Positions 33,014-53,564 of a stretch of DNA of 64,000 nt are shown here, piece by piece. Position 1 is the first letter of the stretch, and the number at the start of each line of letters is the position of its first letter. The notes beneath the pieces were generated by a model. It was given only the letters and a program-made list of their open reading frames with translations, was not told the DNA's origin and ran no database searches. A program made the position numbers and the translations under genes. Origin of the DNA: Capnocytophaga catalasegens (GTDB lineage Bacteria; Bacteroidota; Bacteroidia; Flavobacteriales; Flavobacteriaceae); assembly GCF_026005215.1 (NCBI RefSeq), contig NZ_BPMA01000016.1, positions 1-64,000 on the forward strand, written 5' to 3'.

Positions 33014-36000
33014 TTAAAAGGTTGCATTTACTCCGAAAGTAAAGGTTCTTGCCAGCGGAAAACGACCTACATCCCAGCCTCCTTTTTCAGGCAAGTATCC
33101 TGTATATTTTGTAAAATAAGCCAAATTTGCTCCTGTAAGGAAAAAGCGAATATCTTTAAAATGATTTCCTACTATATTTCCTAGCAAGTTGTAACTTAGA
33201 GTTATTTCGCGAATAGCCAAATAATCTCCTTTTTCCCAATAGCGAGAACTTGAAGTGGCTTGCCCCCCACTGGCTTTATGATTCCCTCTTGGGTCTGTAA
33301 AATCAAAACGAGGTATGGTTGCTGTAGGATTTTCGGGTGTCCAGGTATCTTTTATTTCTGATGTCCAGTTCTGATTTCCTTGTACCTGTGAAATACCACG
33401 ACTACGAACCGCATTGTGTACCAAGTGCCCCACCGCATAGTCTGTTTTTACATATATATTGAAATTTTTATATGAAAAATCAGTAGAAAAACCTCCCATA
33501 TAACTTGGTGTAGTACGACCTAATACAACCCTATCTTTTGAGTCAATTATATTATCTCCATTGATATCTTTCCAACGTGTATCTCCCAATATAGGTGTTC
33601 CCCTTTGAGCAGCAGGAATAGTTCCTGCATGGAATTGCACTTTTCTTCCTTTGTGCTGATCAAGTTGTTCTTGAGTCTGATATACGCCTTCATCTAAATA
33701 TCCAATTACTAAATCATCGCCTACACGTTGCCCTTCTTGACGACCACCAATAAATATAGTTTTGCCCGTTGCTGGGTCAAAAACCTCTTCTCCCCCAATA
33801 CGATTATTATCATTACCGTTATAAGGAAGCTCTCGCACATAGTTACGAATACGGGTAAAGTTGGCTCCAAAGTTCCATTTCATATTTTCTGTATCAATAA
33901 TTCTCACATTTGCTTCCAACTCTATACCTTGATTGCGGAGTGTTCCACTATTGATTTTGACAGAAGAAAATCCTGTTGAAATAGGGATACGCTGATCGGC
34001 TAACTTATCATATACATCTCGAATAAAGTAATCAGCTAATAAATTCACTCGATTATTAAACAACCCTAAATCTAATCCAAAATTAAGTGTTGTTGCTCTT
34101 TCCCATTTTAGATAATACACAGGAATAGAAATGTTTACATATCCTCTTCGACCATTGTATGGGGCTTGTACGCCATATTGCCCTAAAAGCCAATAATATG
34201 TCTTTTTATCATCAATAGTTAATGTTAAAGCATCAATATTACCATTCACTCCATAGCTGACACGTGGTTTTAAACGGGAAACAACTTGGCTTACTTTACT
34301 ATCAGTAAAGAAACTTTCATTATGTACATTCCAACCTATTGATGCACCAGGGAAAAAGCCATATTTGTTATCACGAAGTTTAGAGGTACCATCATAACGG
34401 AGGGTAAGCCCAACCAAGTAGCGATTATCATAATCATAATTAAACTGCCCAAATGCAGAAACAATTGTATAATCTTTTTTGTAACTTGAAGGAATATCTT
34501 TGGCGGTAGCCCCTACATTGAGCGTACGAATAAGGTCAGTAGGAGAATTTTCAGTAGCTGCATTAGAATTGAATGTCTTTTCTTTAAAAAATTCACTTCC
34601 CAAAAGCGCATCAAAATTATGTTTTTCGGCTAACTTATTTTTATAATTCAAAGTAATTGTTCCTTGATTGCGAATAGTTCTATCATAATTAGTTTTTGCC
34701 AAACGATTTGTAACTAAAGCACCGCTATTTAGGTAGGCTTTTGTGAAAGTTTCTACATTGTTATGAATGGCAAAGTGGCTACCACGAGCCATCAAATTCA
34801 AATTTTTAGCTAACTCTAAATCAAACTGAACCGAAGCAGAAATCCGTTGTTCCAAATCATCACGAAGAAATTTATCCTGATAATATAATGGATTACCAAA
34901 ACCACTATTAGTGCCAGGATTATACTCTGAAGAAGAACTCCCGTCTGTATTTGTATTATAAATACGAGAAGTAGGAGCCTGCCCCGCAAAACGTTGGAAT
35001 ATAAAATAATCATCTTCTGTGCTATAACTATTCAGAGCCTCACGGAAAGATCCTTGCCTATTAGTTTGTGCGTAAATGATATTGGAAGATATTTTAAATT
35101 TGTCTGTTATCTTATATGAAGCATTGAGCGTACCTGAGTAACGTTTAAAATTAGAACCCAACACAAGTCCTGTATCGTCCAAGTATCCTAAACCTAAGTA
35201 ATAGGAGCCTCTTTCATTTCCTCCATCAAATGAAATGCTGTAATCTTTAGCATCACTATATTGAAAGATAAGTTCACTCATATTATTATCTTGAAAAACA
35301 AGTGTGCGATTAGGGTCAATGGGGTCTTGCATTTGTTGCCATTGAGGATAATTGAGTAAATACATATTAGCCGGAGTCAATTCCATTGTCGTATAGGTAG
35401 AAGAGGTCGCATTATTACCTATTCCCATTGAATGAGCTCCCGTTAAAAACTGATTAAAGTTAGTAACACCATAATCTTGCACATTTTGAATAGCTTTACG
35501 ATTCCAATAAATATAATCTCTTGCATTTAGGTAACCTGGAAGTTTTCTTTTTTGATTGAGTGTATATTTGGTTCGAAAAGTAATATTTGAGCGTCCTAAT
35601 TTCCCTTTTTTAGTTGTTACCAAAACAACACCATTTGCAGCTCTGGCACCATAAATAGCAGTGGAAGCTGCATCTTTAAGGACCTCTATAGACTCAATAT
35701 CATCTGAGTTTAAAGCATAAAAAGAACTTGGCACACCATCTACCAAAATTAAAGGAGAGCCACCTCCATCAAAATCTGTCCCTCCTCGAAGTTGAATATC
35801 AGGAGTCGTACCTGGTTTTCCTGTAGCAGGTGTTACACGAAGCCCAGCGACACTTCCTTGTAAAGCTGTCGCTACGTTAGCACGCGGGGCACTTTCCAAT
35901 GTTTTTGTATCCAACTTTGAAACTGATGTTGCCAGAGTTTTACGCGACTGTGTTCCATATCCCGTAACCACCACCTCATCAAGCGTATTGGCTTCTTCTT

Positions 36001-36298
36001 TTAGTTTTATATTGAAAATCAGAGAGTTACCCCCCCCCATTACTTTTCTTTCTTGGGTAGAGAATCCTACAAAACTAAACACTAATACTTCTCCTTCTCT
36101 TACTTGAATAGAGAAGTTACCATCGAAATCGGTTTGTGTGCCTCGCGTTGTACCTTTTACAACGACTGAAGCTCCTAATAGAGGCATTCCATCTGTTTCA
36201 GAAACGACGCTACCTGTTACTGTTTTTTCCTGAGCTATTCCTATTGTAGGCAATATTAGCAGAAAGAAAAATAAACATAAAAAGTTTTTTTGTTTCAT
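33014..36298 (-). CDS. SusC/RagA-family TonB-dependent transporter with a 9-G tract
   Basis: A 1094-residue SusC transporter. Residues 1-22 are the signal peptide (TIGIAQ); a carboxypeptidase-regulatory-like domain follows (GSVVSETDGMPLLGASVVV ... DFDGNFSIQ), then the TonB box/plug (LDEVVVTGYGTQSRKTLATS) and the barrel ending GVNATF. After FSFVGFSTQERK the codons ATG GGG GGG GGT encode MGGG and include nine consecutive G (36038-36030). One extra G puts TAA right after the tract; one fewer gives TGA within four codons. It heads a susC-susD operon with a clear promoter (36328-36360). Confidence 0.93.
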   Translation of the reverse strand: MKQKNFLCLFFFLLILPTIGIAQEKTVTGSVVSETDGMPLLGASVVVKGTTRGTQTDFDGNFSIQVREGEVLVFSFVGFSTQERKVMGGGNSLIFNIKLKEEANTLDEVVVTGYGTQSRKTLATSVSKLDTKTLESAPRANVATALQGSVAGLRVTPATGKPGTTPDIQLRGGTDFDGGGSPLILVDGVPSSFYALNSDDIESIEVLKDAASTAIYGARAANGVVLVTTKKGKLGRSNITFRTKYTLNQKRKLPGYLNARDYIYWNRKAIQNVQDYGVTNFNQFLTGAHSMGIGNNATSSTYTTMELTPANMYLLNYPQWQQMQDPIDPNRTLVFQDNNMSELIFQYSDAKDYSISFDGGNERGSYYLGLGYLDDTGLVLGSNFKRYSGTLNASYKITDKFKISSNIIYAQTNRQGSFREALNSYSTEDDYFIFQRFAGQAPTSRIYNTNTDGSSSSEYNPGTNSGFGNPLYYQDKFLRDDLEQRISASVQFDLELAKNLNLMARGSHFAIHNNVETFTKAYLNSGALVTNRLAKTNYDRTIRNQGTITLNYKNKLAEKHNFDALLGSEFFKEKTFNSNAATENSPTDLIRTLNVGATAKDIPSSYKKDYTIVSAFGQFNYDYDNRYLVGLTLRYDGTSKLRDNKYGFFPGASIGWNVHNESFFTDSKVSQVVSRLKPRVSYGVNGNIDALTLTIDDKKTYYWLLGQYGVQAPYNGRRGYVNISIPVYYLKWERATTLNFGLDLGLFNNRVNLLADYFIRDVYDKLADQRIPISTGFSSVKINSGTLRNQGIELEANVRIIDTENMKWNFGANFTRIRNYVRELPYNGNDNNRIGGEEVFDPATGKTIFIGGRQEGQRVGDDLVIGYLDEGVYQTQEQLDQHKGRKVQFHAGTIPAAQRGTPILGDTRWKDINGDNIIDSKDRVVLGRTTPSYMGGFSTDFSYKNFNIYVKTDYAVGHLVHNAVRSRGISQVQGNQNWTSEIKDTWTPENPTATIPRFDFTDPRGNHKASGGQATSSSRYWEKGDYLAIREITLSYNLLGNIVGNHFKDIRFFLTGANLAYFTKYTGYLPEKGGWDVGRFPLARTFTFGVNATF
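36030..36038 (-). repeat. Homopolymeric tract of 9 G in susC
   Basis: Nine C on the plus strand (nine G in the coding sense) at the end of the carboxypeptidase-regulatory-like domain. In frame it encodes Met-Gly-Gly-Gly. Position and stop layout match the tracts at 43300-43311 and 48678-48685. Confidence 0.85.
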
Positions 36299-39764: not shown

Positions 39765-40298
39765 TTACTGAAACATTGAAAGTTTCGTAGTCAAATCCCA
39801 TAGTACAATTCCTACACTAACTGAAATATTGAGCGAATGCTTAGTTCCTAATTGTGGTATTTCAACAACGCAGTTACAAGCCGAAACCACGCTCTGTTGA
39901 ACTCCTTTGACTTCGTTACCGAAAATAAGCACATATTTTTTATTTTCTTCGGGCAAAAACTGATGTAGTAATATAGCATTTTGAGCTTGTTCTACGGCTA
40001 TAATATCAGCATCAGAGCGTAATTCTTCTATTAACTGATGTATGTCTTTACGATATTCCCAATCAACACTTTGGGTAGCTCCCAATGCTGTTTTGTGAAT
40101 ATCTTTGTGAGGAGGACAAGCTGTAATTCCGCACAAATAGATTTTTTCGACACGAAAAGCATCAGAGCTACGAAAAACAGAACCTATATTATGAAGACTT
40201 CTGATATTGTCTAAAACAATAATTATAGGTGTTTTAGGAGCTTTTTTAAAGGTTTCAACATCAATTCGTTGGAGTTGTTCGTTTGTAAGTTTTTGCAT
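39765..40298 (-). CDS. SpoU/TrmH-family RNA 2'-O-methyltransferase
   Basis: A 177-residue SPOUT-fold methyltransferase that would use SAM to methylate ribose in a tRNA or rRNA. Motif 1 is LDNIRSLHNIGSVFRSSDAF near residues 30-49, motif 2 is LIFGNEVKGV, and motif 3 is IPQLGTKHSLNISVSVGIVLWDL; the knot-forming asparagine and glutamate are present. The start at 40298 is preferred: an in-frame extension to 40493 would run through the promoter TACTTTTGC (plus 40312-40320) and into the divergent Crp/Fnr gene. The target base is unknown. Confidence 0.9.
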   Translation of the reverse strand: MQKLTNEQLQRIDVETFKKAPKTPIIIVLDNIRSLHNIGSVFRSSDAFRVEKIYLCGITACPPHKDIHKTALGATQSVDWEYRKDIHQLIEELRSDADIIAVEQAQNAILLHQFLPEENKKYVLIFGNEVKGVQQSVVSACNCVVEIPQLGTKHSLNISVSVGIVLWDLTTKLSMFQ

Positions 40299-40311
40299 TA
40301 TTTTCTTTTTT

Positions 40312-40320
40312 GCAAAAGTA
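40312..40320 (-). promoter_or_regulatory. -7 element for the TrmH-type gene, fixes the start
   Basis: TACTTTTGC on the minus strand matches TAnnTTTGY 13 bp before the ATG at 40298, giving a very short leader and excluding the longer frame. Confidence 0.7.
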
Positions 40321-40389
40321 GAAAAAAACATAGAATAAAAAATCTTGTGAAGATTGAAAATAAATAATTTATAATTTGTCAAAATTTTG

Positions 40390-40397
40390 TATCTTTG
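40390..40397 (+). promoter_or_regulatory. -7 element for the Crp/Fnr regulator
   Basis: TATCTTTG lies 18 bp before the start codon at 40416. The upstream box is not at standard spacing. Confidence 0.55.
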
Positions 40398-40415
40398 ACC
40401 AAAAGATAAAGAAGA

Positions 40416-40988
40416 ATGCAAGTAAGTGAATATTTTACAAAATGGGTAACTCTTTCTCCCCAAGAAAAACAACTTATTGATAAAACTTTTCAAACATTAG
40501 AGATAAATAGAGGAGAGAAGCTCCTTAGAGCAGGTAATATTTGCCAATATGAAGTATTTGTAAAAAAAGGATGCTTAAAGAGTTTTTGTTTAGATGAAAA
40601 ATCCCAAGAAGTGGTATTTGCATTTGCTATTGAACAATGGTGGGCAGGCGATTTTGAGAGTTTTAATCAACGTACACCTAGCGATATAAATATAGAAGCT
40701 GTTGAAGATACAGAATTATTATGTATTACTTTATTACAAAAAGAGCAACTTCTTACCCAAATACCTCAGTTGGAGCGAGCCTATCGGATTATAGTGGAGC
40801 GACATTTGCAAAATTATCAACAGCGTGTTGTTTCTATTTTTACACTTTCAGCCCAAGAACGCTATGAAGTATTTATGAAAAAATATGCTAAAATAGCCAT
40901 TCGTGTACCTCAATATTCAATTGCTTCATATTTAGGAATTTCTCCAGAATCACTAAGTCGTATTCGTAAGAAAATAGTCTCAGAATAG
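40416..40988 (+). CDS. Crp/Fnr-family transcriptional regulator
   Basis: A 190-residue regulator of the Crp/Fnr superfamily. Residues about 20-115 form a cyclic-nucleotide-binding-like domain (INRGEKLLRAGNICQYEVFVKKGCLKSF ... WAGDFESF), and the C-terminus holds the winged helix (VPQYSIASYLGISPESLSRIRKKI, about 165-188). It lacks the cysteine set of oxygen-sensing Fnr and the exact cAMP motif of Crp, like the many Bacteroidota members of unknown signal. It is divergent from the TrmH-type gene and is followed, in convergent orientation, by an AraC gene. Confidence 0.88.
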   Translation: MQVSEYFTKWVTLSPQEKQLIDKTFQTLEINRGEKLLRAGNICQYEVFVKKGCLKSFCLDEKSQEVVFAFAIEQWWAGDFESFNQRTPSDINIEAVEDTELLCITLLQKEQLLTQIPQLERAYRIIVERHLQNYQQRVVSIFTLSAQERYEVFMKKYAKIAIRVPQYSIASYLGISPESLSRIRKKIVSE

Positions 40989-41054
40989 TTTTATTCGGAA
41001 CAAAAAAATTGAAAAATCATAAAATATTTTTTTAATTATCTAAAAAACTTTGAA

Positions 41055-41960
41055 TTATATATTTTTGTTCTTTGACTTGCAGTATTCGCCTGGCGAAATT
41101 CCTCGTATTTGTTTGAAAATTCGCGAAAAATGGTATCGGTCAGCAAAACCTAATTGTTGAGAAACCTCTTCAATCGAAATATTATTATGGTCAAAAAGTC
41201 CACAAGCATTATTTATTTTGCGTTGCTTGATAAAAAATTGTAAAGGTACATGCATTGTGTTGTGAAAAAGCCTTGCAAATGAATTCGTTGCCATATGTAC
41301 CATTGTTGCCAAATGTTCATTTGTGTGATTTTGAGAGATATTTCTGTCAATATAACGAATTACCGAAAGCACTCGTTTATCCATTCGAGTCGCCTCCCAT
41401 AGTGAAGCGTCTAACATAGCAATAAACTCGAAAATAATTGATTGTAAGTACATTGTGAAAGAAAAATCGAATGTATTTCCCTTTTTGAGACATTGGGTAA
41501 GATATTCTAATTTTTCCTTCTGAAACAAACTTAAATCAAGTGTATAAATCCCTTCTTTGACATAATCGAATGGAATGCCAAGATTAAAATGGATATACAA
41601 ATGTAATAGCGAATCTGTAGCTATTTGTAACTCATCTTCATTTTCATCAACACGTTTGCCTTGTACGCTTTCCTCAGAAGAAAAGACTTTATTTGGGGAT
41701 AGAAAATGTGAAAAATAAGGTGTGTTAGGCGAGATTATGTACAAAACATCAGGAGACATTGTATATTCTTTATGGTCATAACCAATAATACCTCCATGAT
41801 TTTTATTCCAATAAATACGCCAGTATGGAAAAGCCATATCCGATGTATTCCACTTTTGTAATTGCCAAAAACGACAGCACCATAGTTTTAGCCGTACAGA
41901 TGAAAAAGTTTGTTTTATAACTGAAGGGTCTCCTTTTTTAGATGAAATATCTTTTTTCAT
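41055..41960 (-). CDS. AraC-family transcriptional regulator
   Basis: A 301-residue AraC/XylS-type regulator. The C-terminal pair of helix-turn-helix motifs spans about residues 200-298: NEHLATMVHMATNSFARLFHNTMHVPLQFF and SIEEVSQQLGFADRYHFSRIFKQIRGISPGEY. The N-terminal half, with HYGGI-like wording near NKNHGGIIGYDHKEY, is a plausible ligand-binding cupin-type domain. Upstream on the minus strand, TATTTTTGT (plus 41987-41995) is a good -7 element. Its place next to two susC/susD pairs makes it a candidate regulator of them, without direct proof. Confidence 0.9.
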   Translation of the reverse strand: MKKDISSKKGDPSVIKQTFSSVRLKLWCCRFWQLQKWNTSDMAFPYWRIYWNKNHGGIIGYDHKEYTMSPDVLYIISPNTPYFSHFLSPNKVFSSEESVQGKRVDENEDELQIATDSLLHLYIHFNLGIPFDYVKEGIYTLDLSLFQKEKLEYLTQCLKKGNTFDFSFTMYLQSIIFEFIAMLDASLWEATRMDKRVLSVIRYIDRNISQNHTNEHLATMVHMATNSFARLFHNTMHVPLQFFIKQRKINNACGLFDHNNISIEEVSQQLGFADRYHFSRIFKQIRGISPGEYCKSKNKNI

Positions 41961-42111
41961 TGAGATGAATGATGTTTAAAACGGATACAAAAATACAAAT
42001 TTTATTCATTTTTTTATTCATTTTTTTAGAATAATTTTGTCTTATCAAATTCGATAGTTGTTTGCCAAGAAATATCAACTAAAAAATATAAGTAAAATTA
42101 GTTAATAAAAT

Positions 42112-42843
42112 ATGCAAGTATTAGATATTATTATTTATATAACTGCCTTGTCAATTATCCTGATAGGATTTTTCGTATATAGAAATCCAGACTCCATTGC
42201 AGGATATAATACAATGTCTGATGAACAGAAAGGAAATTATGACATTGTTAGATTTAAAAAAGTCCTCAGAAATATTCTTGTAATTGGTGGTTTACTTATA
42301 ATTTTTGTCAATTTATTGCTTGGATTATTTGAATTAAATGCTTGGAGGGTTTTACCTGTTATTCTGATATTGTTAGTCGTTTGTTTTTATATAGTTTACA
42401 AAGGAAGGAATTTTTATACAGATAATGAGTCGAAAAACTCGGTGAGGCTATATTGGATTCTGAGTATTCCATTTTTGTTAATTGTAGGTATCTCGATAGG
42501 TATTTATTATGGAATAAAAGAGACAGAAGTAATTGTATCTTCTGAAAAAATAAAAATAAAAGGAGTGTATGGATTTGTAATTCCAACAGAAAACATTCAG
42601 AAGGTTGAGCTAATTGAAAGACTGCCTGCAATGGGATACAAAACCAACGGATTCAGCGGTGTTGATGATATTTTAAAAGGAAATTTCCGAGCCAAAAACA
42701 AAGAGGATTACAAACTTTTTGTTTATTCTAAGCATCCTCCATTTTTGAAAATAATTTACAATGATAATCAGAAAGTATATATTAACTTTAAAACTACCTC
42801 AGAAACAACGCAACTCTACAACGAAATAGTTAAAAACTTGTAA
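42112..42843 (+). CDS. Membrane protein with DUF3784-like and bacterial PH-like regions
   Basis: A 243-residue membrane protein. Four hydrophobic segments cover about residues 1-22, 60-75, 80-97 and 117-136. The first part resembles DUF3784 (NPDSIAGYNTMSDEQKGNYDI). After the last segment comes a soluble beta-rich stretch (about 140-240: EVIVSSEKIKIKGVYGFVIP ... FLKIIYNDNQKVYINFKT) like a bacterial PH domain. Function unknown. It lies between the AraC gene and the tandem susC/susD block, with no obvious link to either. Confidence 0.75.
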   Translation: MQVLDIIIYITALSIILIGFFVYRNPDSIAGYNTMSDEQKGNYDIVRFKKVLRNILVIGGLLIIFVNLLLGLFELNAWRVLPVILILLVVCFYIVYKGRNFYTDNESKNSVRLYWILSIPFLLIVGISIGIYYGIKETEVIVSSEKIKIKGVYGFVIPTENIQKVELIERLPAMGYKTNGFSGVDDILKGNFRAKNKEDYKLFVYSKHPPFLKIIYNDNQKVYINFKTTSETTQLYNEIVKNL

Positions 42844-42911
42844 TTTGCACTTTTTCATAACCAAACCAAAAACCGACGTATACCAACTAAAATTAAATTA
42901 GTAATCAAAAA

Positions 42912-42942
42912 ATCCGTCTGTCTTTTATTTCGGATGAAAGAC
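42912..42942 (+). promoter_or_regulatory. Interleaved stems in the susC leader (pseudoknot or alternate folds)
   Basis: ATCCG (42912-42916) can pair with CGGAT (42931-42935), and GTCTTT (42920-42925) with AAAGAC (42937-42942). The pairs interlock, so they make either a pseudoknot or two competing hairpins. Confidence 0.4.
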
Positions 42943-42948
42943 AATAAT

Positions 42949-42996
42949 GTTCGGGTGGAGGCAAAATAATAAAACTATTTTCAACTCTACCTGAAC
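42949..42996 (+). promoter_or_regulatory. 12-bp hairpin in the leader of susC at 43052
   Basis: GTTCGGGTGGAG (42949-42960) pairs with CTCTACCTGAAC (42985-42996) over 12 positions with two G-U pairs, around a 24-base loop. It lies 56 bases before the start codon and has no T-tract, so it is not a simple terminator. Confidence 0.5.
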
Positions 42997-43051
42997 GAAA
43001 CGGTGTATTCTTGTGAAACAAAATATAATTTTTAACTTAAATAATTTAAAT

Positions 43052-46000
43052 ATGTTTAAACAATTATTAGCAACATTTGTGCTACTGCTTTTAGCATTAC
43101 CACTATCAGCACAAATAAAAGTAACTGGGAAGGTTACTGACGAAAGCAATAGTCCACTACCAGGGGCTAATATCTTAGTGAAAGGAACTACACACGGAGT
43201 GGTTTCTGACTTTGACGGAAATTATGAAATTCAAGTCAGTCAAGGAGATGTGCTTGAATTTTCGTATATTGGATTTCAGACCCAAACCAAAAAAGTAGTG
43301 GGGGGGGGGGGTAAGCCTCTTATTATCAATGTTTTATTAGAGGAAGATGCCCAGCAGCTTGATGATGTAGTAGTCGTAGGCTTTGGTACTCAAAAGAAAG
43401 CAAACCTCACAGGAGCTGTATCATCTGTAGATGCTAAAGTACTTGAAGGACGCCCTGTAACAAGTGCAATACAAGCGTTACAGGGGGCAGTACCAGGTAT
43501 GAACTTCTCAGTAGGAAATACTGGAGGAGAACTTAATAGCAACTTAAACATAAATATACGTGGAGGAGGTACCATTGGGAGTGGTTCAAGTGCCAGTCCT
43601 CTTGTTTTAATTGATGGAATGGAAGCAGATATCAATACGCTTAATCCTCAAGATATTGAGAGTATTTCGGTATTAAAAGATGCTGCTTCAGCTTCTATTT
43701 ATGGGTCGAGAGCTCCTTTTGGGGTAATTTTAGTAACTACAAAATCTGGAAAAGAAGGGCGAATACAAATTAACTATAATAATAATTATCGTCTTAGCAA
43801 TCCAATGAATGTTCCTAATATGTTAGATTCTGAAAATTTCGCATATTATTGGAATGATGCTGCTGCCAATTCAGGAAGTGCTGCTATTTTTAGACCTGAA
43901 ATTATTGAAAAAATAAAACAACATAAAGCTGGGCAATTATTAGAAGCTACAGACTGGAACGAAACCGAGAACAAGTGGAATGACTATACTAACTCTTGGG
44001 CAAATGTTAATTGGTTTAAGCAATTTTATCGTGAATGGGCTCCTTCAAAAGACCATAATTTAAGTATTCGTGGTGGAAATGAAAAAACAAATTATTACTT
44101 ATCTGTCAATTGGCTGAATCAGGAAGGGCTTGTTCGATATAATACAGATATTTTTGATAGATATTCAGTCAATGCAAAAATCTCTTCACAGATTCTCCCA
44201 TACTTAAAAATAAATTATAACACGCGCTTTATTCGTATAGATTATGTCCGTTCGTCATATTTGACCGAAGGTAATGGTTTGTTTTTCCATAATATAGCCC
44301 GACGTTGGCCTACACTTCCTGTATATGATCCCAATGGAAATTACCAATATGGAAATGAAATAGCACATCTCAATAATGGTCAATCAAAAGACCAAAAAGA
44401 TATTTTAAGTCAACAAATAGCATTGGTTTTCACTCCCTTAAAAGGCTGGGCTACTAATATTGAATTTAACTACAGAATAAATAATGATTGGATTCATTCA
44501 CATTGGTTGCCTATATACAAATATAATAAAGAAGGAACCCCCGAATTAGCCCCCCTACAGTTGGGAGGGGCTCTTAACAAAGCAGGAGCTTCTATAGTTA
44601 GAGAATATGCATATCGAAATAATTTCTTTAACCCTAACATTTATACTTCCTATGAAAGATACATTAAAGATCATTTTATAAAAGGACTTATTGGTTTTCA
44701 GTCTGAACTTGGAAAAACACGTAATGTAAGTGCTGATAGAGATGGACTATATAGTGTAGATGTTTTAGCTATCAATGCTACTGGAGGAGATAATGATAAT
44801 GTCAGTGGACAATATCAACACTGGGCAACCGCTGGTTTCTTTGGACGATTAAATTATGATTACAAAGGAAAGTACCTTATAGAAGGAAATATCCGTTATG
44901 ATGGTACTAGCCGTTTTTTAAGAGAACAACGATGGAATACATTTTCTTCTGTGTCAGGAGGTTGGAATGTAGCGAAAGAGAGTTTTTGGCAAAATTTAGG
45001 AAAATTTGGAGAGGCTATATCTGAATTCAAATTCAAAGCATCATATGGTGAGTTAGGAAACCAAAATACTCATAATTGGTATCCTTTTTATCCTAAGATG
45101 AAATTGGGAACAACAGGGAATTGGCTTATAAATAAGCAAAGAACCAATACTGCCTCTGCTCCTGACCTGATTTCTACGTTTCTTACGTGGGAAAAAGTAT
45201 CTTCATGGAATGTTGGTTTTGACTTAGCTGCTTTTCAAAACAGATTAGCTCTTACCTTTGAAATTTTTCAACGAAATACTATCAATATGGTGGGGCCTGC
45301 TCCGCAATTACCTCTAACCTTAGGAACAGCACCGCCACGGATTAACAATACAGATATGGAATCTCGTGGATTTGATTTTCAAATCAGTTGGAGGGACCAA
45401 ATTGGAAAAGATTTTTCATATGGAATTACAGCAAATTTGACCGATAGCCGACAACAAGTAACTAAATATCCCAATGATACGAAAAACTTAAATGAGTGGT
45501 ACTCAGGAAAATATTCAGGAGAAATATGGGGATACATAACTCACGGAATTGCAAAAACGGACCAAGAAATGAATGATTGGCTTGCCAACCACGATCAGAA
45601 ACAATTGGGAAGTAATTGGACAGCAGGAGACGTTATGTATGAGGACTTAAATGGAGATGGAAAAATCAATGAAGGCTCTAATACAGTGTATGACTCTGGT
45701 GATAAAAAAATCATTGGGAATAGCACCCCACGTTATAATTTCGGAGTAAATATTGATATGAAGTACAAAGGCATTGATTTTAGTATTTTTATGCAAGGAA
45801 TAGGCAAACGTGATTTAGATCTACGTGGTGTTTATTTTAACGGAGCTAATACGAATATGTGGCAGTCCGCAGGCTTTGCTGAGCACTTAGATTATTTCCG
45901 ACCCGAAGGAACAAATAGTCCGCTTGGCGCTAATGTAAATGCCTATTATCCACGACCATTATTTGGTAGTGGAGGTAAGAACTTCCAAGCGCAAACGCGT

Positions 46001-46255
46001 TGGTTGCAGGATGGTTCTTATCTACGAATAAAAAACATTCAATTAGGATATACTTTCCCTACTGAGATAATGCAAAAAATAGGTGTAGATAAACTACGTA
46101 TTTATATTTCAGCTGAAAACGTAGCTACTTTTACCAAATTGAGCAAAATTTTTGACCCAGAAGTGGTTTCTAGCGGACGTTGGGGCAATGGAGAATACGG
46201 AAAGATATACCCTTTATCACGTGTGATTTCAACAGGTTTAAGTTTAACTTTTTAA
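43052..46255 (+). CDS. SusC/RagA-family TonB-dependent transporter with a 12-G tract
   Basis: A 1067-residue SusC transporter from the ATG at 43052; the upstream GTG at 43013 is not used because the paralogue at 48429 starts with the same MFKQLLA. Residues 1-21 are the signal peptide (LPLSAQ), then a carboxypeptidase-regulatory-like domain (GKVTDESNSPLPGANI ... DFDGNYEIQ). The codons GTG GGG GGG GGG GGT after QTQTKKV contain twelve G (43300-43311). The plug follows (LDDVVVVGFGTQKKANLTG) and the barrel ends GLSLTF. SusD follows by 10 bp. With one G more the next codon is TAA; with one less, TAG follows within ten codons. Confidence 0.93.
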   Translation: MFKQLLATFVLLLLALPLSAQIKVTGKVTDESNSPLPGANILVKGTTHGVVSDFDGNYEIQVSQGDVLEFSYIGFQTQTKKVVGGGGKPLIINVLLEEDAQQLDDVVVVGFGTQKKANLTGAVSSVDAKVLEGRPVTSAIQALQGAVPGMNFSVGNTGGELNSNLNINIRGGGTIGSGSSASPLVLIDGMEADINTLNPQDIESISVLKDAASASIYGSRAPFGVILVTTKSGKEGRIQINYNNNYRLSNPMNVPNMLDSENFAYYWNDAAANSGSAAIFRPEIIEKIKQHKAGQLLEATDWNETENKWNDYTNSWANVNWFKQFYREWAPSKDHNLSIRGGNEKTNYYLSVNWLNQEGLVRYNTDIFDRYSVNAKISSQILPYLKINYNTRFIRIDYVRSSYLTEGNGLFFHNIARRWPTLPVYDPNGNYQYGNEIAHLNNGQSKDQKDILSQQIALVFTPLKGWATNIEFNYRINNDWIHSHWLPIYKYNKEGTPELAPLQLGGALNKAGASIVREYAYRNNFFNPNIYTSYERYIKDHFIKGLIGFQSELGKTRNVSADRDGLYSVDVLAINATGGDNDNVSGQYQHWATAGFFGRLNYDYKGKYLIEGNIRYDGTSRFLREQRWNTFSSVSGGWNVAKESFWQNLGKFGEAISEFKFKASYGELGNQNTHNWYPFYPKMKLGTTGNWLINKQRTNTASAPDLISTFLTWEKVSSWNVGFDLAAFQNRLALTFEIFQRNTINMVGPAPQLPLTLGTAPPRINNTDMESRGFDFQISWRDQIGKDFSYGITANLTDSRQQVTKYPNDTKNLNEWYSGKYSGEIWGYITHGIAKTDQEMNDWLANHDQKQLGSNWTAGDVMYEDLNGDGKINEGSNTVYDSGDKKIIGNSTPRYNFGVNIDMKYKGIDFSIFMQGIGKRDLDLRGVYFNGANTNMWQSAGFAEHLDYFRPEGTNSPLGANVNAYYPRPLFGSGGKNFQAQTRWLQDGSYLRIKNIQLGYTFPTEIMQKIGVDKLRIYISAENVATFTKLSKIFDPEVVSSGRWGNGEYGKIYPLSRVISTGLSLTF
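43300..43311 (+). repeat. Homopolymeric tract of 12 G in susC
   Basis: Twelve consecutive G inside the coding sequence encode part of Val-Gly-Gly-Gly-Gly. This is the longest of three such tracts in the window, all at the same place in susC genes, in DNA that is otherwise AT rich. Confidence 0.88.
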
Positions 46256-46265
46256 TATAAGAACG

Positions 46266-48212
46266 ATGAAAAAAATATATAAAATAGCATTAGTAGTAAT
46301 TCTACTTGTAACTATAACATCTTGTAACAAGTTCTTGGATCGTGAACCTCTCACTGATATTTCACCAGAACAATTTTTTAATACAGAACAAGATCTGGCT
46401 GCCTATACCATAACAAGATATTCGTTTCCTACACATAGAGATTGGAATGCAGGTACTTTTGTCGAAGACAATCATACCGATAATCAGGCTTCAGGTTCAG
46501 CAAATGGACGATGGAAAAAAGGAGAATGGAGAGTACCTACTCGAGGTGGAGGATATGATTTTAATAGCATAAGAGAAATTAATTTCTTTTTTGAACAAGT
46601 AGAACCCAAAGTAGCTAATGGGAAAATAACAGGTAGTCCGCAGAATATAAATCATTATCTTGGAGAAGCATATTTTCTTAGAGCTTATGAGTATTTTAAA
46701 AAGCTACGTTCTTTCGGAGATTATCCCATTATAAAAAAAGTGCTTCCCGATGATAAAACAATACTTATTGAGGCTTCAAAACGCCAACCTCGTAACCAAG
46801 TAGCTCGTTTTATTTTGGAAGATTTGGACAAAGCAATAGCGTTACTCAAACCAAGCCCCGTACAAGGAAAAAACCGAATAAGTAAAGAAGTAGCATTATT
46901 ATTCCGTTCAAGAGTAGCTCTTTTTGAAGGTACTTGGCTTAAATATCATAAAGGAACAGCTTTCGTACCAGGAGGAACAGGCTGGGGTGGCTCTGCAACT
47001 AATTATCCTTTGGGAGGCATTGACCAAGAAATTGAATATTTCTTTACAGAAGCGATGAATTCCGCTAAAACAGTAGCTGATGCTATAGCTATCACTCCAA
47101 GTAATCACACAGTAACAGGAAAAAATGTTTTTGATAATCCGTATTACAAAATGTTTGGTGATTTGGATATGAGTGCGTATTCCGATGTACTATTGTGGAG
47201 ACAAGCAAATGCTGAGTTTTTCGGACATCACACGATGCACTATCTTAAAGGAGGAGCAAACTCTGGCTACACACGTGGTTTTATGGAAACTTTTCTAATG
47301 AAAAACGGATTGCCTATTTATGCAGCTGGTTCTGGTTATCAAGGAGATGAAACACTAATCAAAGTAAAACAAAATCGTGATGAACGCTTACAACTTTTTG
47401 TTCGTGCCAATGGCGATTATATTTCCACTATTGGCAAAGAGATTGTTGCCTCATATCCTGACATTTTATCTAATGTTGCTGAACAAAAAGCTGTTACAGG
47501 CTATGATATAAATAAAGGGGTATACCCAGATCAAAAATACCACGAAGGAAGTAATCTTACAGAAACAGGCTGTATTGTTTTTCGTGCCACAGAGGCTTAT
47601 TTAAATTACATAGAAGCTTCTTTTGAAAAAGAAGGTTCTCTCAATGGAACTGCTATTGGATATTGGAAAAAACTTCGTTCGCGTGCTGGGCTTCCTGAAG
47701 ACCCTGATGTAACGATTTCAGCTACCGACTTAAGCAAAGAAACAGATTGGGCTGTATATTCTGCTGGAAATCAAATAAATACTACTTTGTATAACATCCG
47801 TCGTGAACGTCGTTGCGAATTTATAGCTGAAGGAATGCGGTACGATGACTTAAAGCGTTGGAGAGCACTAGACCAAGTTTCTAATTATCAAATAGAAGGA
47901 ATGAACTTGTGGGCTGAAATGTATGATGCAAATGATTATAAAGACAATGGTGTAAGTAAAATAAAAACACTTCCTGACACAAGTCCGAATATGTCGGCAA
48001 AAGCATTAAGTACCTACATTCGCCCGTATCAAATCACTCAAGCTAATAATTTATATTACGACGGATATACTTGGACTAAAGCTCATTATTTAAGTCCTAT
48101 CCCTTACGAAAATTTTGTACACACTTCTTTAGACGGAAGTACATTATCTTCAGTGATTTATCAAAATCCAGGGTGGCCGATATCTGCCAATGGAGGTGCT
48201 AACGATATTTAA
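46266..48212 (+). CDS. SusD/RagB-family surface lipoprotein
   Basis: A 648-residue SusD-like protein, long for the family. The lipoprotein signal is LVTITSC with Cys 20, followed by NKFLDREPLTDISPEQFFNTEQDL, the typical SusD entry. Helical repeats appear at YLGEAYFLRAYEYFKKLRSFGDYPII, and the C-terminal signature is NIRRERRCEFIAEGMRYDDLKRWRAL. It forms a pair with the 12-G SusC 10 bp upstream and is the first half of a tandem block; no hydrolase is encoded with it. A terminator at 48250-48287 ends the operon. Confidence 0.92.
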   Translation: MKKIYKIALVVILLVTITSCNKFLDREPLTDISPEQFFNTEQDLAAYTITRYSFPTHRDWNAGTFVEDNHTDNQASGSANGRWKKGEWRVPTRGGGYDFNSIREINFFFEQVEPKVANGKITGSPQNINHYLGEAYFLRAYEYFKKLRSFGDYPIIKKVLPDDKTILIEASKRQPRNQVARFILEDLDKAIALLKPSPVQGKNRISKEVALLFRSRVALFEGTWLKYHKGTAFVPGGTGWGGSATNYPLGGIDQEIEYFFTEAMNSAKTVADAIAITPSNHTVTGKNVFDNPYYKMFGDLDMSAYSDVLLWRQANAEFFGHHTMHYLKGGANSGYTRGFMETFLMKNGLPIYAAGSGYQGDETLIKVKQNRDERLQLFVRANGDYISTIGKEIVASYPDILSNVAEQKAVTGYDINKGVYPDQKYHEGSNLTETGCIVFRATEAYLNYIEASFEKEGSLNGTAIGYWKKLRSRAGLPEDPDVTISATDLSKETDWAVYSAGNQINTTLYNIRRERRCEFIAEGMRYDDLKRWRALDQVSNYQIEGMNLWAEMYDANDYKDNGVSKIKTLPDTSPNMSAKALSTYIRPYQITQANNLYYDGYTWTKAHYLSPIPYENFVHTSLDGSTLSSVIYQNPGWPISANGGANDI

Positions 48213-48249
48213 AATCTATTACACACTTAACTATAAAATTGAAATTATA

Positions 48250-48287
48250 GAAATAGAACCTTATAATAATTGGTTCTATTTCTTTTT
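48250..48287 (+). terminator. Terminator between the two tandem susC/susD pairs
   Basis: GAAATAGAACC (48250-48260) and GGTTCTATTTC (48272-48282) form an 11-bp stem followed by TTTTTT, so the two pairs are separate transcripts. Confidence 0.85.
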
Positions 48288-48320
48288 TAGAGATCTTTAA
48301 AAAAATTTAATGTTAATTAT

Positions 48321-48353
48321 TTTGTTTTAAACATTTTATCTTTTTAACTTTGT
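48321..48353 (+). promoter_or_regulatory. Consensus Bacteroidota promoter for the second tandem susC
   Basis: TTTG at 48321-48324, a 20-bp spacer and TAACTTTGT at 48345-48353 match both boxes. The transcript would start near 48360, leaving a leader of about 70 bases. Confidence 0.82.
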
Positions 48354-48369
48354 GGTGTTCTATTTGAGA

Positions 48370-48394
48370 GATTACGTTTTTTTCAAACGTAATC
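48370..48394 (+). promoter_or_regulatory. 10-bp hairpin in the leader of susC at 48429
   Basis: GATTACGTTT and AAACGTAATC form a perfect 10-bp stem with a 5-base loop about 10 bases into the predicted transcript and 34 bases before the start codon. A T-run occupies the loop side, not the 3' side, so it is not a terminator. Confidence 0.5.
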
Positions 48395-48428
48395 CATTAA
48401 TTACCAGAAACTTTAAATTTTATCATAT

Positions 48429-51400
48429 ATGTTCAAACAATTATTAGCTATATTTGTGCTGATGCTTTTGGCATTACCGCTATCGGCACAAATAAGAGTA
48501 ACTGGAAAGGTTACTGACCAGAGTAATAGTCCGCTACCAGGAGCCGATATTTTGGTAAAAGGAACTACACACGGAGTGGTTTCTGACTTTGACGGAAATT
48601 ATGAGATACAAGTCAATCAAGGCGATGTGCTTGAATTCTCGTACATCGGATTTCAAACCCAAACCAAAAAGGTAGTTGGGGGGGGTAAATCATTGATAAT
48701 CAATGTTATACTAAAAGAAGATGCTCAACAACTTGATGACGTAGTAGTTGTTGGGTATGGTACCCAAAAGAAGGTAAATTTAACAGGAGCAGTTGCTTCC
48801 ATTGATACTAAAAAAATGGCATCTAGACCTTCTACAAACATCACAAAAACACTACAAGGAGCTGTACCAGGGGTAACAATCATTTCTCGCCCAGGAGGTA
48901 CTTCGTTGAATATTCGTGGACGTGGGAATTTAGGCTCTTCAGAACCTTTGTATATCGTTGATGGAATCGAAGTTAGTTCTAGTTTCTTCAATGCACTTAA
49001 TCCTAATAGTATTGAGAGTATTTCATTTTTGAAAGACGCTTCTTCTGCAGCAATTTATGGAGCGAAAGCTGCCTTTGGAGTAGTTCTTGTTAGTACCAAA
49101 GCAGCGAAATCAGGCGTTTTACAAATTTCGTATGATGGTTCTACAGGAGTTCAAATGCCAACTTATTTACCAAAAATGGTTAACTCAGCACAATATGCTG
49201 AAATGTATCGAGAGGCTGAACGAAATTCAGGTGTCCAAGAAAGTAATTTAACATTTACAGATGAAATGATTCGTAAATATGCTGATGGTTCTGATCCTGA
49301 TAGATTTCCTGACACAAACTGGTTTGATTTAATTCTCAGAAAACAAAGTTTTCTTACCAAACACAATCTTCAGTTTTCTGCGGGTAGCGATAAGTTTAAA
49401 TATGTTATTGGGACGGGTTTTCTTCGTGAAGAAGATCTTACTCCAGGAGTCGCAACGAATCGTTACAATATTAACACCAAAACATCTTCTGATTTAAAGC
49501 CTTGGCTTACAATCACTTCCAATATCAATTTTATTTACAATAAATATGATAGAAAAAAAGGTTCTTCAAGCCTTTTGGAAGCTCTTCGTGTACCTCCAAC
49601 ACAAGTAGCAAAACATTCTAATGGTAATTGGGGTTCGGTACGAAATGGGCGTCAAGCAACAGGAGAAGAAATCAGTGCAAATCCGCTTCGATCTTTAGAA
49701 GAAAATGGGCGTGCAAATTCAACTACTAAACGACTTTTAGGATCTATAGGTATAGAATTACGACCATTAGAAAATATGAAAATCACCAATCAATTAGGGT
49801 ACAACTATTTTGATTACAGAGGTTTTTCTTTTACTAATAGAAAAAAAGGTGTACCGAGTTTTTTAAATCCTGCTTCTGGAATTATCCCGAATACTGAGCT
49901 GAAAGTAAACCAGATGGATTTGGATTGGAGATATTCAGACAAGTGGATTTATGATGGCTGGATCAATTACGACAAAACCTTTAACCAAGTTCATTCATTA
50001 ACAGCTATGGCTGGGGCACATGCTGATATTTATCAATATAAGCGAATCACAGTTGGGCGTAAAAACTTTGCTAGTGACGAAATGAATGATTTCAAAGGAG
50101 GTTCCATCAAAGAATCAGATCAGTTAGTAACTAACCGACAAAATGAAGATTTTTACTTAGAAGAGAATATCAATTCTTACTTTGGAAGACTAGGATATAC
50201 TTACGATCAAAAATATCTTTTTGAAGCGAATTTCCGTGCAGATGCATCTTCACGCTTTGCCAAAGAAGGTAGATGGGGATATTTCCCTTCATTTTCAGTA
50301 GGTTGGAGAATGGAGCAAGAAGAATTTATGAGAAATCTTACTTGGATTGATGGACTTAAGTGGCGTGCCTCTTGGGGGAAAAATGGAAATATCAACAACA
50401 TAGGTCTATACGATACGTATTCAACATATAATTCCAGTGGCACCATTGTTTTAGGAGGAGTGAGTTCTAACATCCTTACTGAAGGACGATTAGGAAATAA
50501 AAATTTAACTTGGGAAACAACTATCACCACCAACGTGGGACTTGATTTATCAATCAGTAAAGGACTATTAGGCTTAACTATTGATTACTACGATCGTCTT
50601 ACAGATGGAATTCTTATTAGAGCTAATGACATAATGACCGAAACAGGTTTATCTTCGGAACAAATCCCTGCTCGCAATGTCGGAAAAGTACGTAACAAGG
50701 GAGTAGAATTAGTTGTTTCACACGCTAATAAAATAGGTGATTTTTCATATAATTTGTCCTTCAACGCTACTCATAATAAAAATATAATAGAAGATTTAGG
50801 AGATAAAGTTACAGAACTTCCTCCAAGCGACCATTGGATTTTTAGAAAAGGAGGTTCCATAGGTGATTTTTATATGTTACAAGCTGATGGTGTATATTCC
50901 ACTCAAGATGTTGCCAGTGGAAATATAATTCCCTTTGGAACACAGGTTCCAGAAGCAGGTATGGTAAAATATGTTGACGCAAATGCTGATGGTAAAATTG
51001 ATTCCCAAGACCGTATAATAGTAGCTAACGATGTTCCTAAATTTACTTACGGATTTAATGTAGATTTGAATTATAAGAATTTTTCATTGTCTGTATTCGG
51101 GCAAGGTGTAACTGATGTCAAAGTTTATTTAAGTGAAGAAGCCTCACAAGCATTCTTTGATAATTCCGTACCTCGTCAATGGCAAACTGATTATTGGACA
51201 GAAAATAATCAAAATTCCACATACTTAAAACTTTTCACACCTGCAGATCAACGTTATAAATATAATAATCAGAAATCATCTTATTGGTTATTCGATGCTT
51301 CTTATTTTAGAATTAAGAACGTTACATTGAGTTACTCTCTATCTGATGATGTATTAAAGCAGATTGGATTGACAAATGCACGTATATTCCTCTCAGCAGA

Positions 51401-51521
51401 CAATATATTTACAATTAGAGGAGACAAACGAATGAAAGATTTTGACCCCGAAGTTGCTAGTGGGCGAGGATATAGCTTAGGTTTGAAAAGTTATACAGCG
51501 GGTATTACCTTTACTTTTTAA
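48429..51521 (+). CDS. SusC/RagA-family TonB-dependent transporter with an 8-G tract
   Basis: A 1030-residue SusC transporter. Residues 1-21 are the signal peptide (LPLSAQ), followed by a carboxypeptidase-regulatory-like domain nearly identical to that of the SusC at 43052, then GTT GGG GGG GGT (eight G, 48678-48685) after QTQTKKV. The plug starts LDDVVVVGYGTQKKVNLTGAV; from there the sequence departs strongly from its neighbour. The barrel ends GITFTF. One G more yields TAA straight after the tract and one less yields TGA within four codons. SusD follows by 19 bp. Confidence 0.93.
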   Translation: MFKQLLAIFVLMLLALPLSAQIRVTGKVTDQSNSPLPGADILVKGTTHGVVSDFDGNYEIQVNQGDVLEFSYIGFQTQTKKVVGGGKSLIINVILKEDAQQLDDVVVVGYGTQKKVNLTGAVASIDTKKMASRPSTNITKTLQGAVPGVTIISRPGGTSLNIRGRGNLGSSEPLYIVDGIEVSSSFFNALNPNSIESISFLKDASSAAIYGAKAAFGVVLVSTKAAKSGVLQISYDGSTGVQMPTYLPKMVNSAQYAEMYREAERNSGVQESNLTFTDEMIRKYADGSDPDRFPDTNWFDLILRKQSFLTKHNLQFSAGSDKFKYVIGTGFLREEDLTPGVATNRYNINTKTSSDLKPWLTITSNINFIYNKYDRKKGSSSLLEALRVPPTQVAKHSNGNWGSVRNGRQATGEEISANPLRSLEENGRANSTTKRLLGSIGIELRPLENMKITNQLGYNYFDYRGFSFTNRKKGVPSFLNPASGIIPNTELKVNQMDLDWRYSDKWIYDGWINYDKTFNQVHSLTAMAGAHADIYQYKRITVGRKNFASDEMNDFKGGSIKESDQLVTNRQNEDFYLEENINSYFGRLGYTYDQKYLFEANFRADASSRFAKEGRWGYFPSFSVGWRMEQEEFMRNLTWIDGLKWRASWGKNGNINNIGLYDTYSTYNSSGTIVLGGVSSNILTEGRLGNKNLTWETTITTNVGLDLSISKGLLGLTIDYYDRLTDGILIRANDIMTETGLSSEQIPARNVGKVRNKGVELVVSHANKIGDFSYNLSFNATHNKNIIEDLGDKVTELPPSDHWIFRKGGSIGDFYMLQADGVYSTQDVASGNIIPFGTQVPEAGMVKYVDANADGKIDSQDRIIVANDVPKFTYGFNVDLNYKNFSLSVFGQGVTDVKVYLSEEASQAFFDNSVPRQWQTDYWTENNQNSTYLKLFTPADQRYKYNNQKSSYWLFDASYFRIKNVTLSYSLSDDVLKQIGLTNARIFLSADNIFTIRGDKRMKDFDPEVASGRGYSLGLKSYTAGITFTF
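48678..48685 (+). repeat. Homopolymeric tract of 8 G in susC
   Basis: Eight consecutive G encode Gly-Gly-Gly at the same place as the tracts in the two other susC genes. Confidence 0.85.
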
Positions 51522-51540
51522 TAGATAAAAAAATAGAAAA

Positions 51541-53340
51541 ATGAAAAATATAATAAAAATAGCTTTTGTAACTTCTGTTTTAATGGGAGTGAGTTGTTCC
51601 GATGATTTTTTTGAAAAATCTCCACAGGGTTCGTTAGACCCTTCCAAAATTGATGAGACATTACTTACAAGTTTTAGAAATTCCATCTACTCATATAAAG
51701 GAGCTATGTCATTAAATGGATATGGCGCCATCTTTTTAGACGGATATGCAGACAATGGATACTCACGAAATTCGTGGGATAGTAATGGAGCTTCTGTACA
51801 AGCTAATACTCTTAATCCAGCTCAAGATTATGGATATAATTGGTTTTACTCTGGCATACGAGCGTGTAATCAGATTATTGAAAAGGTAGATGGTTTTGAA
51901 AAAACTCCTGCTGAGTTACGCTCAAAATACAAAAATGAAGCTCGTGTTATGCGTGCGTGGCTTTATGGAGGATTAACTCTCTATTTTGGTGATGTACCTT
52001 TTGTTGAGGGACTTGTTGATGATTTTCCCAACGGATTAAAGCGGACTTCTGCAAGTGAAATACGTTCTTGGGTTTTGAAAGAACTGGACGAAGCTATTGC
52101 AATATTGCCTACTATCAATGATAAAGGCACATTCAATAAAGTCGTTGCAACAGCTATCAAAGCTCGTATGGCATATTATTTTGGGAATTATTCGGAAGCT
52201 GAAGCGGCAGCTCGTTATGTTATTGACAACGGAGGATACCAACTTCACCAAGTAGCATCTCTTACCGATGATATGAGAAAAGATGCCGAATATTTTAAGA
52301 AATTTATTGATTTTTCTACTTATGGAATAAATGAAAATGATTTCATTAAGGGGATTTTCAATTATCAAGATATTTGGAAAGCAGATAATAGCCCCGAAAC
52401 AATTATAGCTCAAGAAGTTATCGCTAATGAACAAGAAGGAGATTGGCTACGAGTAACGGCTCTATTGACTCCAAATTTGGTAGATAAACAAGCGTGGGCA
52501 ACAATTGTACCTATTCAAGAGTTGGTTGATGCATATTGGTCAGTTGATGGAAAAACACTTCCTGTACTTTCTCCAATGACGAATCGAATAACTCAATATA
52601 ACACCCTGAAAACTGAAGTAGATGGCTTGAAACCAAATATGCCTAATAAAACATATAGTGAAGCTGTACATAGTATTGTAAATAGTCTTCCTTTAAAAGA
52701 CTATATGTCACAGTATAAGAATCGAGATAGTCGCTTGTATGCTTCGATTATTTTCCCATTCTCTTCTGTAAGTAAATATATTCCAGATGCATATCAAGAG
52801 TATGTACCTGACATCGTAAATTATGGACGAAGTGGCTTTGCTTTTCGAAAAATGAGTGGAGCTGACGATGTTGTTACAATTTGGGGTGGTGCATATTATA
52901 CTACAGGGATTGATTTTCCGATGATGCGTTTAGCAGAAATCCTTCTTATTTATGCGGAATCACATACTCAGGTAGTTGGTTATGACGGCAGTGTAACTAC
53001 AGAGCTTAACAAATTACGAAAACGTGTAGGTATGCCTGATGTCCCCACAAGTTTATCAAAAACAGAGGCTCTTGATTTTATCCGTGCAGAACGCAGAATA
53101 GAGCTTGCAGGTGAGGGTTTTCGTTTCTTTGACATCCGTCTTTATGAAGATGATACCAGAAATGGTGGGTACAAAGGAAATCAAGCTGCAAGCGTTGTGA
53201 TGAAAGGACAAATACAAGATATAGTAGGAAATCCTGGAGCAGAAAAAAAATGGAGCCCTCGCTTGATGTATATGCCTATCCCGACAACTGCATTAGATAA
53301 AAATAAAAATCCTGAAATGAAACAGAATGAAGGATATTAA
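51541..53340 (+). CDS. SusD/RagB-family surface lipoprotein
   Basis: A 599-residue SusD-like protein. The lipoprotein signal ends LMGVSC with Cys 19, and SDDFFEK after it is acidic, as in surface-exported lipoproteins of this group. Landmarks are KNEARVMRAWLYGGLTLYFGDVPFV near residues 130-154 and the C-terminal RAERRIELAGEGFRFFDIRLYE. It completes the second tandem pair; a strong terminator follows. The ligand is unknown. Confidence 0.92.
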   Translation: MKNIIKIAFVTSVLMGVSCSDDFFEKSPQGSLDPSKIDETLLTSFRNSIYSYKGAMSLNGYGAIFLDGYADNGYSRNSWDSNGASVQANTLNPAQDYGYNWFYSGIRACNQIIEKVDGFEKTPAELRSKYKNEARVMRAWLYGGLTLYFGDVPFVEGLVDDFPNGLKRTSASEIRSWVLKELDEAIAILPTINDKGTFNKVVATAIKARMAYYFGNYSEAEAAARYVIDNGGYQLHQVASLTDDMRKDAEYFKKFIDFSTYGINENDFIKGIFNYQDIWKADNSPETIIAQEVIANEQEGDWLRVTALLTPNLVDKQAWATIVPIQELVDAYWSVDGKTLPVLSPMTNRITQYNTLKTEVDGLKPNMPNKTYSEAVHSIVNSLPLKDYMSQYKNRDSRLYASIIFPFSSVSKYIPDAYQEYVPDIVNYGRSGFAFRKMSGADDVVTIWGGAYYTTGIDFPMMRLAEILLIYAESHTQVVGYDGSVTTELNKLRKRVGMPDVPTSLSKTEALDFIRAERRIELAGEGFRFFDIRLYEDDTRNGGYKGNQAASVVMKGQIQDIVGNPGAEKKWSPRLMYMPIPTTALDKNKNPEMKQNEGY

Positions 53341-53382
53341 AGATTACTAAAACGATAGATAATCTATCTTTTAATACACATA

Positions 53383-53425
53383 CCAAAGGCTCCGAGAAAA
53401 TCCTCTCGGAGCTTTTGGCTTTTTA
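53383..53425 (+). terminator. Terminator after the tandem susC/susD block
   Basis: CCAAAGGCTCCGAGA and TCTCGGAGCTTTTGG form a long, slightly imperfect stem followed by CTTTTT. Confidence 0.85.
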
Positions 53426-53511
53426 TACCGAAAAATATAGCGGAAAATTATTTTTCACTATGAAAAAAGCAAATAATATCCTAAAAATATTTTAGGTTTA
53501 AATTTTTATAT

Positions 53512-53520
53512 TATCTTTGC
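53512..53520 (+). promoter_or_regulatory. -7 element for the DUF6089-uppS-bamA operon
   Basis: TATCTTTGC matches TAnnTTTGY about 45 bp before the first start codon; no convincing upstream box was found. Confidence 0.6.
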
Positions 53521-53564
53521 CGATTATTTAGAGAACTATTATATCTATTTCTAATAAAAAATTG

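Follow-up and report, generated by a model that had tools for sequence, protein, structure and literature searches.

A poly-G tract in the N-terminal extension of Capnocytophaga SusC receptors, a probable phase switch within a shared front cassette

Bioinformatic analysis of a stretch of 64,000 nucleotides from Capnocytophaga catalasegens (the whole of it is referred to here as the window) suggests that a run of twelve G residues in a susC gene acts as a contingency switch, in which slipped-strand phase variation would turn a SusC/SusD importer on or off in a fraction of the cells, and that the same device is built into many receptors of the genus. We consider this reading very probable. It is based on a single site, on codon conservation beyond what a need for glycine would call for, on in-frame and out-of-frame alleles in different species, and on stop codons that follow promptly on loss of frame. 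What is new is that the tract sits in a front cassette common to receptors with unrelated barrels. Collectively, the sequence data indicate that the feature is real and conserved; it is most probably a phase switch operated by a poly-G tract, of a kind known from Neisseria but here located in SusC and embedded in an unusual shared-cassette architecture.

The tract and its counterparts in the window

The features of the window on which the argument draws are as follows.

43052–46255, plus strand: susC carrying the G12 tract, SusC/RagA family (TIGR04056), 1067 aa, in frame (ON) in the assembly
43121–43375, plus strand: N-terminal extension domain (NTE; CarbopepD_reg_2, PF13715) enclosing the tract, Pfam residues 24–108
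43300–43311, plus strand: G12 tract, proposed slippage switch, coding for Gly84–Gly87, its first G being the third base of Val83
43361–43378, plus strand: putative TonB box DDVVVV, from its likeness to VDEVVV of Bt1763 in the accessible part of PMC7782687
46266–48212, plus strand: susD partner of this susC (Pfam SusD_RagB), 10 nt past the susC stop codon
43050–43308, plus strand: front cassette copy 1, a direct repeat with 48427–48685 (88%, no gaps)
48427–48685, plus strand: front cassette copy 2, a direct repeat with 43050–43308
48429–51521, plus strand: second tract-bearing susC, in frame (Pfam and translation)
48678–48685, plus strand: G8 tract at the same codons of this next susC (sequence)
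51541–53340, plus strand: susD partner of the second susC (Pfam)
33014–36298, minus strand: third tract-bearing susC, in frame (Pfam and translation)
36030–36038, minus strand: G9 tract at the same codons of this third susC (sequence)
31503–32993, minus strand: susD partner of the third susC (Pfam)

The first-pass annotation of this DNA had placed the G12 tract in frame within a susC coding sequence, where it would encode four glycines, and sequence and translation agree on this: the tract, read between ...aaaaaagtagt on its 5′ side and taagcctct on its 3′ side, encodes V-G-G-G-G-K inside an intact SusC. The NCBI model TIGR04056 assigns the protein to the SusC/RagA TonB-linked outer membrane proteins with 863 bits (cut-off 368), and Pfam finds the NTE and the plug in it, with the SusD partner adjoining. 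The predicted outcome of single slips also holds, one added G making the very next codon TAA and one lost G leading to TAG after nine further codons; as at poly-G contingency loci, the homopolymer lies in a reading frame and a one-base change truncates the product. The placement of the tract between a regulatory-like domain and the TonB box, in contrast, has to be corrected, as it lies inside that domain (CarbopepD_reg_2), near its end.

Only three runs of G or C of at least 8 occur in the whole window, and the two others, G8 and G9, fall at the matching codons of two further susC genes, as had been claimed. All three genes encode an N-terminal extension and a plug and have a neighboring SusD partner (Pfam), and their loops read KVV-GGGG-KPLIIN (G12), KVV-GGG-KSLIIN (G8), and KVM-GGG-NSLIFN (G9), the in-frame length thus varying among the paralogues. 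The assertion that a long G run is unlikely by chance in this DNA was borne out by dinucleotide shuffles, which gave 0.21 ± 0.52 G8 matches compared with 8 overlapping matches observed; none of 100 shuffles reached 8, and chance was rejected as a sufficient cause of the run. The genome to which the window belongs (2.9 Mb, 100 contigs) contains 21 G runs of at least 7, of which 11 are of at least 8; TonB receptors with an NTE account for four of these 11, and three of the four are at the loop. A sigma-70-type scan upstream, using a model that does not cover Bacteroidota promoters, returned a single site, on the minus strand and at chance level.

The genus survey and the front cassette

The survey covered 20 Capnocytophaga species genomes, one assembly per species, with drafts and metagenome-assembled genomes (MAGs) among them. 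A pattern for the site requiring at least five G residues matched 39 times, in 13 of the 20 genomes, compared with 5 for the reversed pattern. All 39 matches, three of which are in the window, were read, and 30 proved to be SusC-type receptors in which the tract occupies the same loop; the other nine (L183, L220, L236, L283, L284, L290, L294, L295, and L297) were dropped as nonreceptors. Two more receptors with a differing 3′ flank (L204 and L233) were added from the survey of G9 runs, giving at least 32 SusC-type receptors with G6–G12 at the loop, in 9 of the 20 genomes; the remaining 11 yielded none in the pattern search. Assignment to SusC in this set means an NTE motif, a TonB box, and 888–1052 open codons past the tract, a figure that is a lower bound in three receptors whose frame runs off the fetched stretch; the family model was run on the window gene. 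Tract lengths in the set of 30 are mostly G9 (n = 16) and G8 (n = 11), with one each of G6, G10, and G12. The first-pass annotation had expected G runs to cluster at this susC position rather than to lie scattered, and 20 of the 76 runs of at least nine G in the 20 genomes do fall on this one loop. Elsewhere in the family, 98 genomes contained 108 runs of at least that length.

Outside the genus, a loop pattern admitting any glycine codon gave 54 matches in 394 non-Capnocytophaga genomes of the family, of which 3 read GGGGGT. These three, the ones checked, lie in frames of 15–18 codons and were rejected as nonreceptors. Among 79 named loci, G8 or longer occurs at the loop in 6 of 10 from Capnocytophaga and in 0 of 69 others, a count that overlaps the surveyed genomes and is not extra evidence.

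Several G runs lie elsewhere. In the genome of the window, a G10 at C18:118244–118253 (L246, G000:C18:115245–121254, minus strand) splits a type I restriction specificity gene into two Methylase_S frames that are not in register with each other, and genes for HsdR and HsdM lie alongside; on sequence grounds this is likely to be a phase-variable restriction system. Also in that genome, a G12 lies within the reading frame for a TraG/TraD-like conjugation coupling protein (L248, G000:C40:1–4848, minus strand). Three uncharacterized proteins related to one another (L179 in G001, L199 in G008, and L211 in G010) have G9, G13, and G21 at corresponding positions, those with G13 and G21 being out of register. 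Two TonB receptors have a run at a second site between the gene start and the NTE, G10 in L245 (G000:C9:19826–25835) and G9 in L234 (G017), both in frame. Six intergenic runs of G9–G15 (L191, L194, L198, L203, L205, and L219, in G005, G007, G008, G009, and G014) are flanked by a TTAAC-like stretch on one side and a TTTG-type element on the other, both of which we take to be promoter motifs; the ATG of an open frame is 41–59 nt downstream in five of the six, the nearest ATG in L194 being 2 nt after the run. Such runs may lie in promoter spacers and form a transcriptional variety of the same switching.

The DNA around the receptor tract is shared to a degree that the barrels are not. Over the 62 codons that precede the tract, the DNA of the two tandem receptors in the window is 89% identical, compared with 32% identity between their barrel proteins; a gapped alignment of the two cassette copies extends the similarity past the TonB box. 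In the pair L201/L202 of genome G009, the same pre-tract DNA is 98% identical and the barrels 34%; similarity sets in about 90 nt upstream of the ATG and tails off past the TonB box. A further case lies between species: L188 of C. felis matches L296 of G019 at every base for 412 nt upstream and 90 nt downstream of the tract, the tract itself differs by three bases, and the two barrels are only 39% alike. In C. felis, equivalog models identify the genes on either side of this locus (stretches L304 and L305) as fucI and fucP. The 5′ flank, up to and including the TonB box, aligns over 2.6 kb at 92.8% and the 3′ flank over 9.8 kb at 89.8%, while the plug, barrel, and SusD between them (4.5–4.8 kb) are not conserved, save for three matches of 88–132 nt at 69–81%. 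The simplest reading is that recombination took place immediately after the TonB box, leaving the switch in the constant part. The converse also occurs, L187 and L288 having kept the barrel (91%) with a divergent NTE (61%). Among nonorthologous pairs, mean NTE identity is 62% within a genome (n = 47) versus 57% between genomes (n = 368), a difference reached in 16 of 5,000 label shuffles; homogenization of the front cassette within genomes is weakly supported as a general rule, and the argument rests on the sharp single cases.

These cases raise the idea of a portable switch, in which a constant front (upstream DNA, signal peptide, NTE, poly-G, and TonB box) would persist while barrels and SusD partners were exchanged behind it by recombination past the TonB box. 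A newly acquired importer would then be phase-variable at once, and the cell would hold a combinatorial repertoire of independently flickering receptors. We give this extension an even chance of being right.

Codon use, frame state, and competing explanations

Glycine might be needed in the loop for reasons of the protein, with the GGG codons incidental or inherited from a recent common ancestor. The codons speak against this. The search pattern left one tract codon free, and that codon is GGG in 29 of 30 genes, although the glycine codons behind the tract in the same genes are GGA in 41%, GGT in 29%, GGG in 15%, and GGC in 14%; the corresponding binomial figure, 7e-23, treats related genes as independent and is not to be taken at face value. 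Five different codons are used for the Leu three residues past the tract codon in these 30 genes, and nonorthologous pairs agree in codon at only 43–47% of their shared residues on average, both of which count against the explanation. Not every neighbor varies, since the second Ile of LIIN behind the tract (at about 43325–43327 of the window) is, unlike those around it, as uniform as the tract codon, being ATC in 29 of 30 genes and TTC for Phe in the other. A search of the genus with any glycine codon allowed gave 32 matches, 28 in receptors and four not in receptors; 25 of the 28 read GGGGGT, and the other three (L299, L300, and L301) spell Gly3 with mixed codons. These three receptors cut both ways, for they indicate that the glycines themselves have some use and also that glycine at the loop does not alone demand a G run. 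Sharing of the front cassette through recombination likewise favors inheritance, because it means that the genes are not independent. With the GGG bias at the free codon and the mixed-codon loops together, a requirement of the protein was rejected as a sufficient cause of the run, and we regard this whole line of explanation as very improbable.

At the tract, 28 of the 32 receptors are in frame and 4 are out of frame, a comparison that is between species only. The four are L184 (C. canis, G003), L287 and L288 (both from the MAG G016), and L237 (G017). Each meets a stop 3–6 codons after the tract start, and beyond it 925–1052 codons run without another stop. One of them, L288, has a close in-frame counterpart in L187 of C. 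felis, the two having the same nine bases before the tract as well as the similar barrels noted above; another, L287, has the barrel nearest to that of the window G12 gene in the set (67%), its susC and susD region aligning with the window over 5.1 kb at 67% nucleotide identity. A switch sampled in both of its states would be expected to leave such alleles. They might instead be errors of assembly or sequencing, or decaying pseudogenes, around a tract that does not switch: the genomes are drafts or MAGs, homopolymers are error-prone, and three of the four alleles come from G016 and from G017, which is 89% complete. Homopolymer errors in draft assemblies could indeed lie behind some of them. 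As an account of the whole, however, error or decay is very improbable, given that no other stop interrupts any of the four genes and that errors leave unexplained the conservation of position and codons and the differing lengths of the in-frame paralogues. The least credible alternative, to which we assign almost no weight, is programmed frameshifting or transcriptional slippage, in which each allele would give two products and there would be no heritable switch. G runs can be slippery for the ribosome or the polymerase, but 28 of the 32 alleles read straight through and, in the alleles reread, slipped products end within 3–6 codons, so that no useful second product is evident.

The claim of the first-pass annotation that the susC tract is a slipped-strand ON/OFF switch is therefore strengthened, as far as sequence can do so, by the out-of-frame alleles in otherwise open genes and by the preference for one site. 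Under phase variation, slipped-strand mispairing at replication would add or remove a G; a change of one would lose the susC frame and stop translation before the TonB box; neither plug nor barrel would be made, and the SusCD pair would stay off in that lineage until the tract slipped again. Gains or losses of three G residues would change only the glycine count of the NTE loop, which is three or four within the window. Length change within a strain would be expected to be frequent and reversible, with effects on uptake, on phage or bacteriocin sensitivity, or on antigenicity; at G8 and G9, the usual lengths, slippage may be slow.

Known systems and biological meaning

The nearest parallel is in Neisseria meningitidis, where poly-G phase variation of hmbR and hpuA is documented across isolates, with reported hpuA ON lengths that step, e.g., 10 and 13 (accessible part of PMC3786947). 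There too a poly-G tract lies in the reading frame, and the frame of hmbR, for a surface nutrient receptor, or of hpuA, for the partner lipoprotein, is gained or lost when the tract changes in length (PMC3786947, same part). The Capnocytophaga case differs in phylum and receptor family. Here the receptor is a SusC with an NTE of its own, many paralogues have the tract at one and the same loop, and a front cassette is held in common. In the Bacteroidota, switching of SusC/D is attributed to an invertase in the accessible text of a review (PMC11868660). The switched item is again a SusC/D importer, but the proposed switch here is an in-frame homopolymer instead of a DNA inversion, and a search of 40000–54000 for inverted repeats of at least 40 nt, the one length class covered, found none. 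The main text of that review, as far as accessible, contains none of "Flavobact-," "Capnocytophaga," or "TonB," and the accessible main text of a frameshift survey of 1106 genomes (PMC3711429) likewise contains none of "SusC," "TonB," or "Flavobact-." Among the matches listed in the open-access literature, no report described switching by poly-G or slipped-strand mispairing, either of SusC or in Capnocytophaga.

The difference in barrel and SusD at the fucI–fucP locus is reminiscent of ragAB in Porphyromonas gingivalis, for which four alternative SusC/SusD-type alleles are reported, the types differing among strains; unlike for the Capnocytophaga receptors, a poly-G switch goes unmentioned for ragAB in the accessible part of that source (PMC11817032). 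Bt1763 of Bacteroides thetaiotaomicron has the same PF13715 domain ahead of its TonB box, and deletion of its NTE strongly harms growth on levan; the accessible text, which describes the function of the SusC NTE as unknown, mentions no G tract for Bt1763, in contrast to the tract-bearing receptors (PMC7782687). The front cassette would offer a handle on this N-terminal extension.

SusCD importers are main uptake machines of the Bacteroidota and can be targets of phage and of the immune system. If the present reading is true, then random poly-G switching at one reused site would provide a recombinase-free route to receptor heterogeneity, which would be measurable in existing sequencing reads. 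Furthermore, a Capnocytophaga susC that passes for a "pseudogene" may be an OFF allele and not a dead gene.
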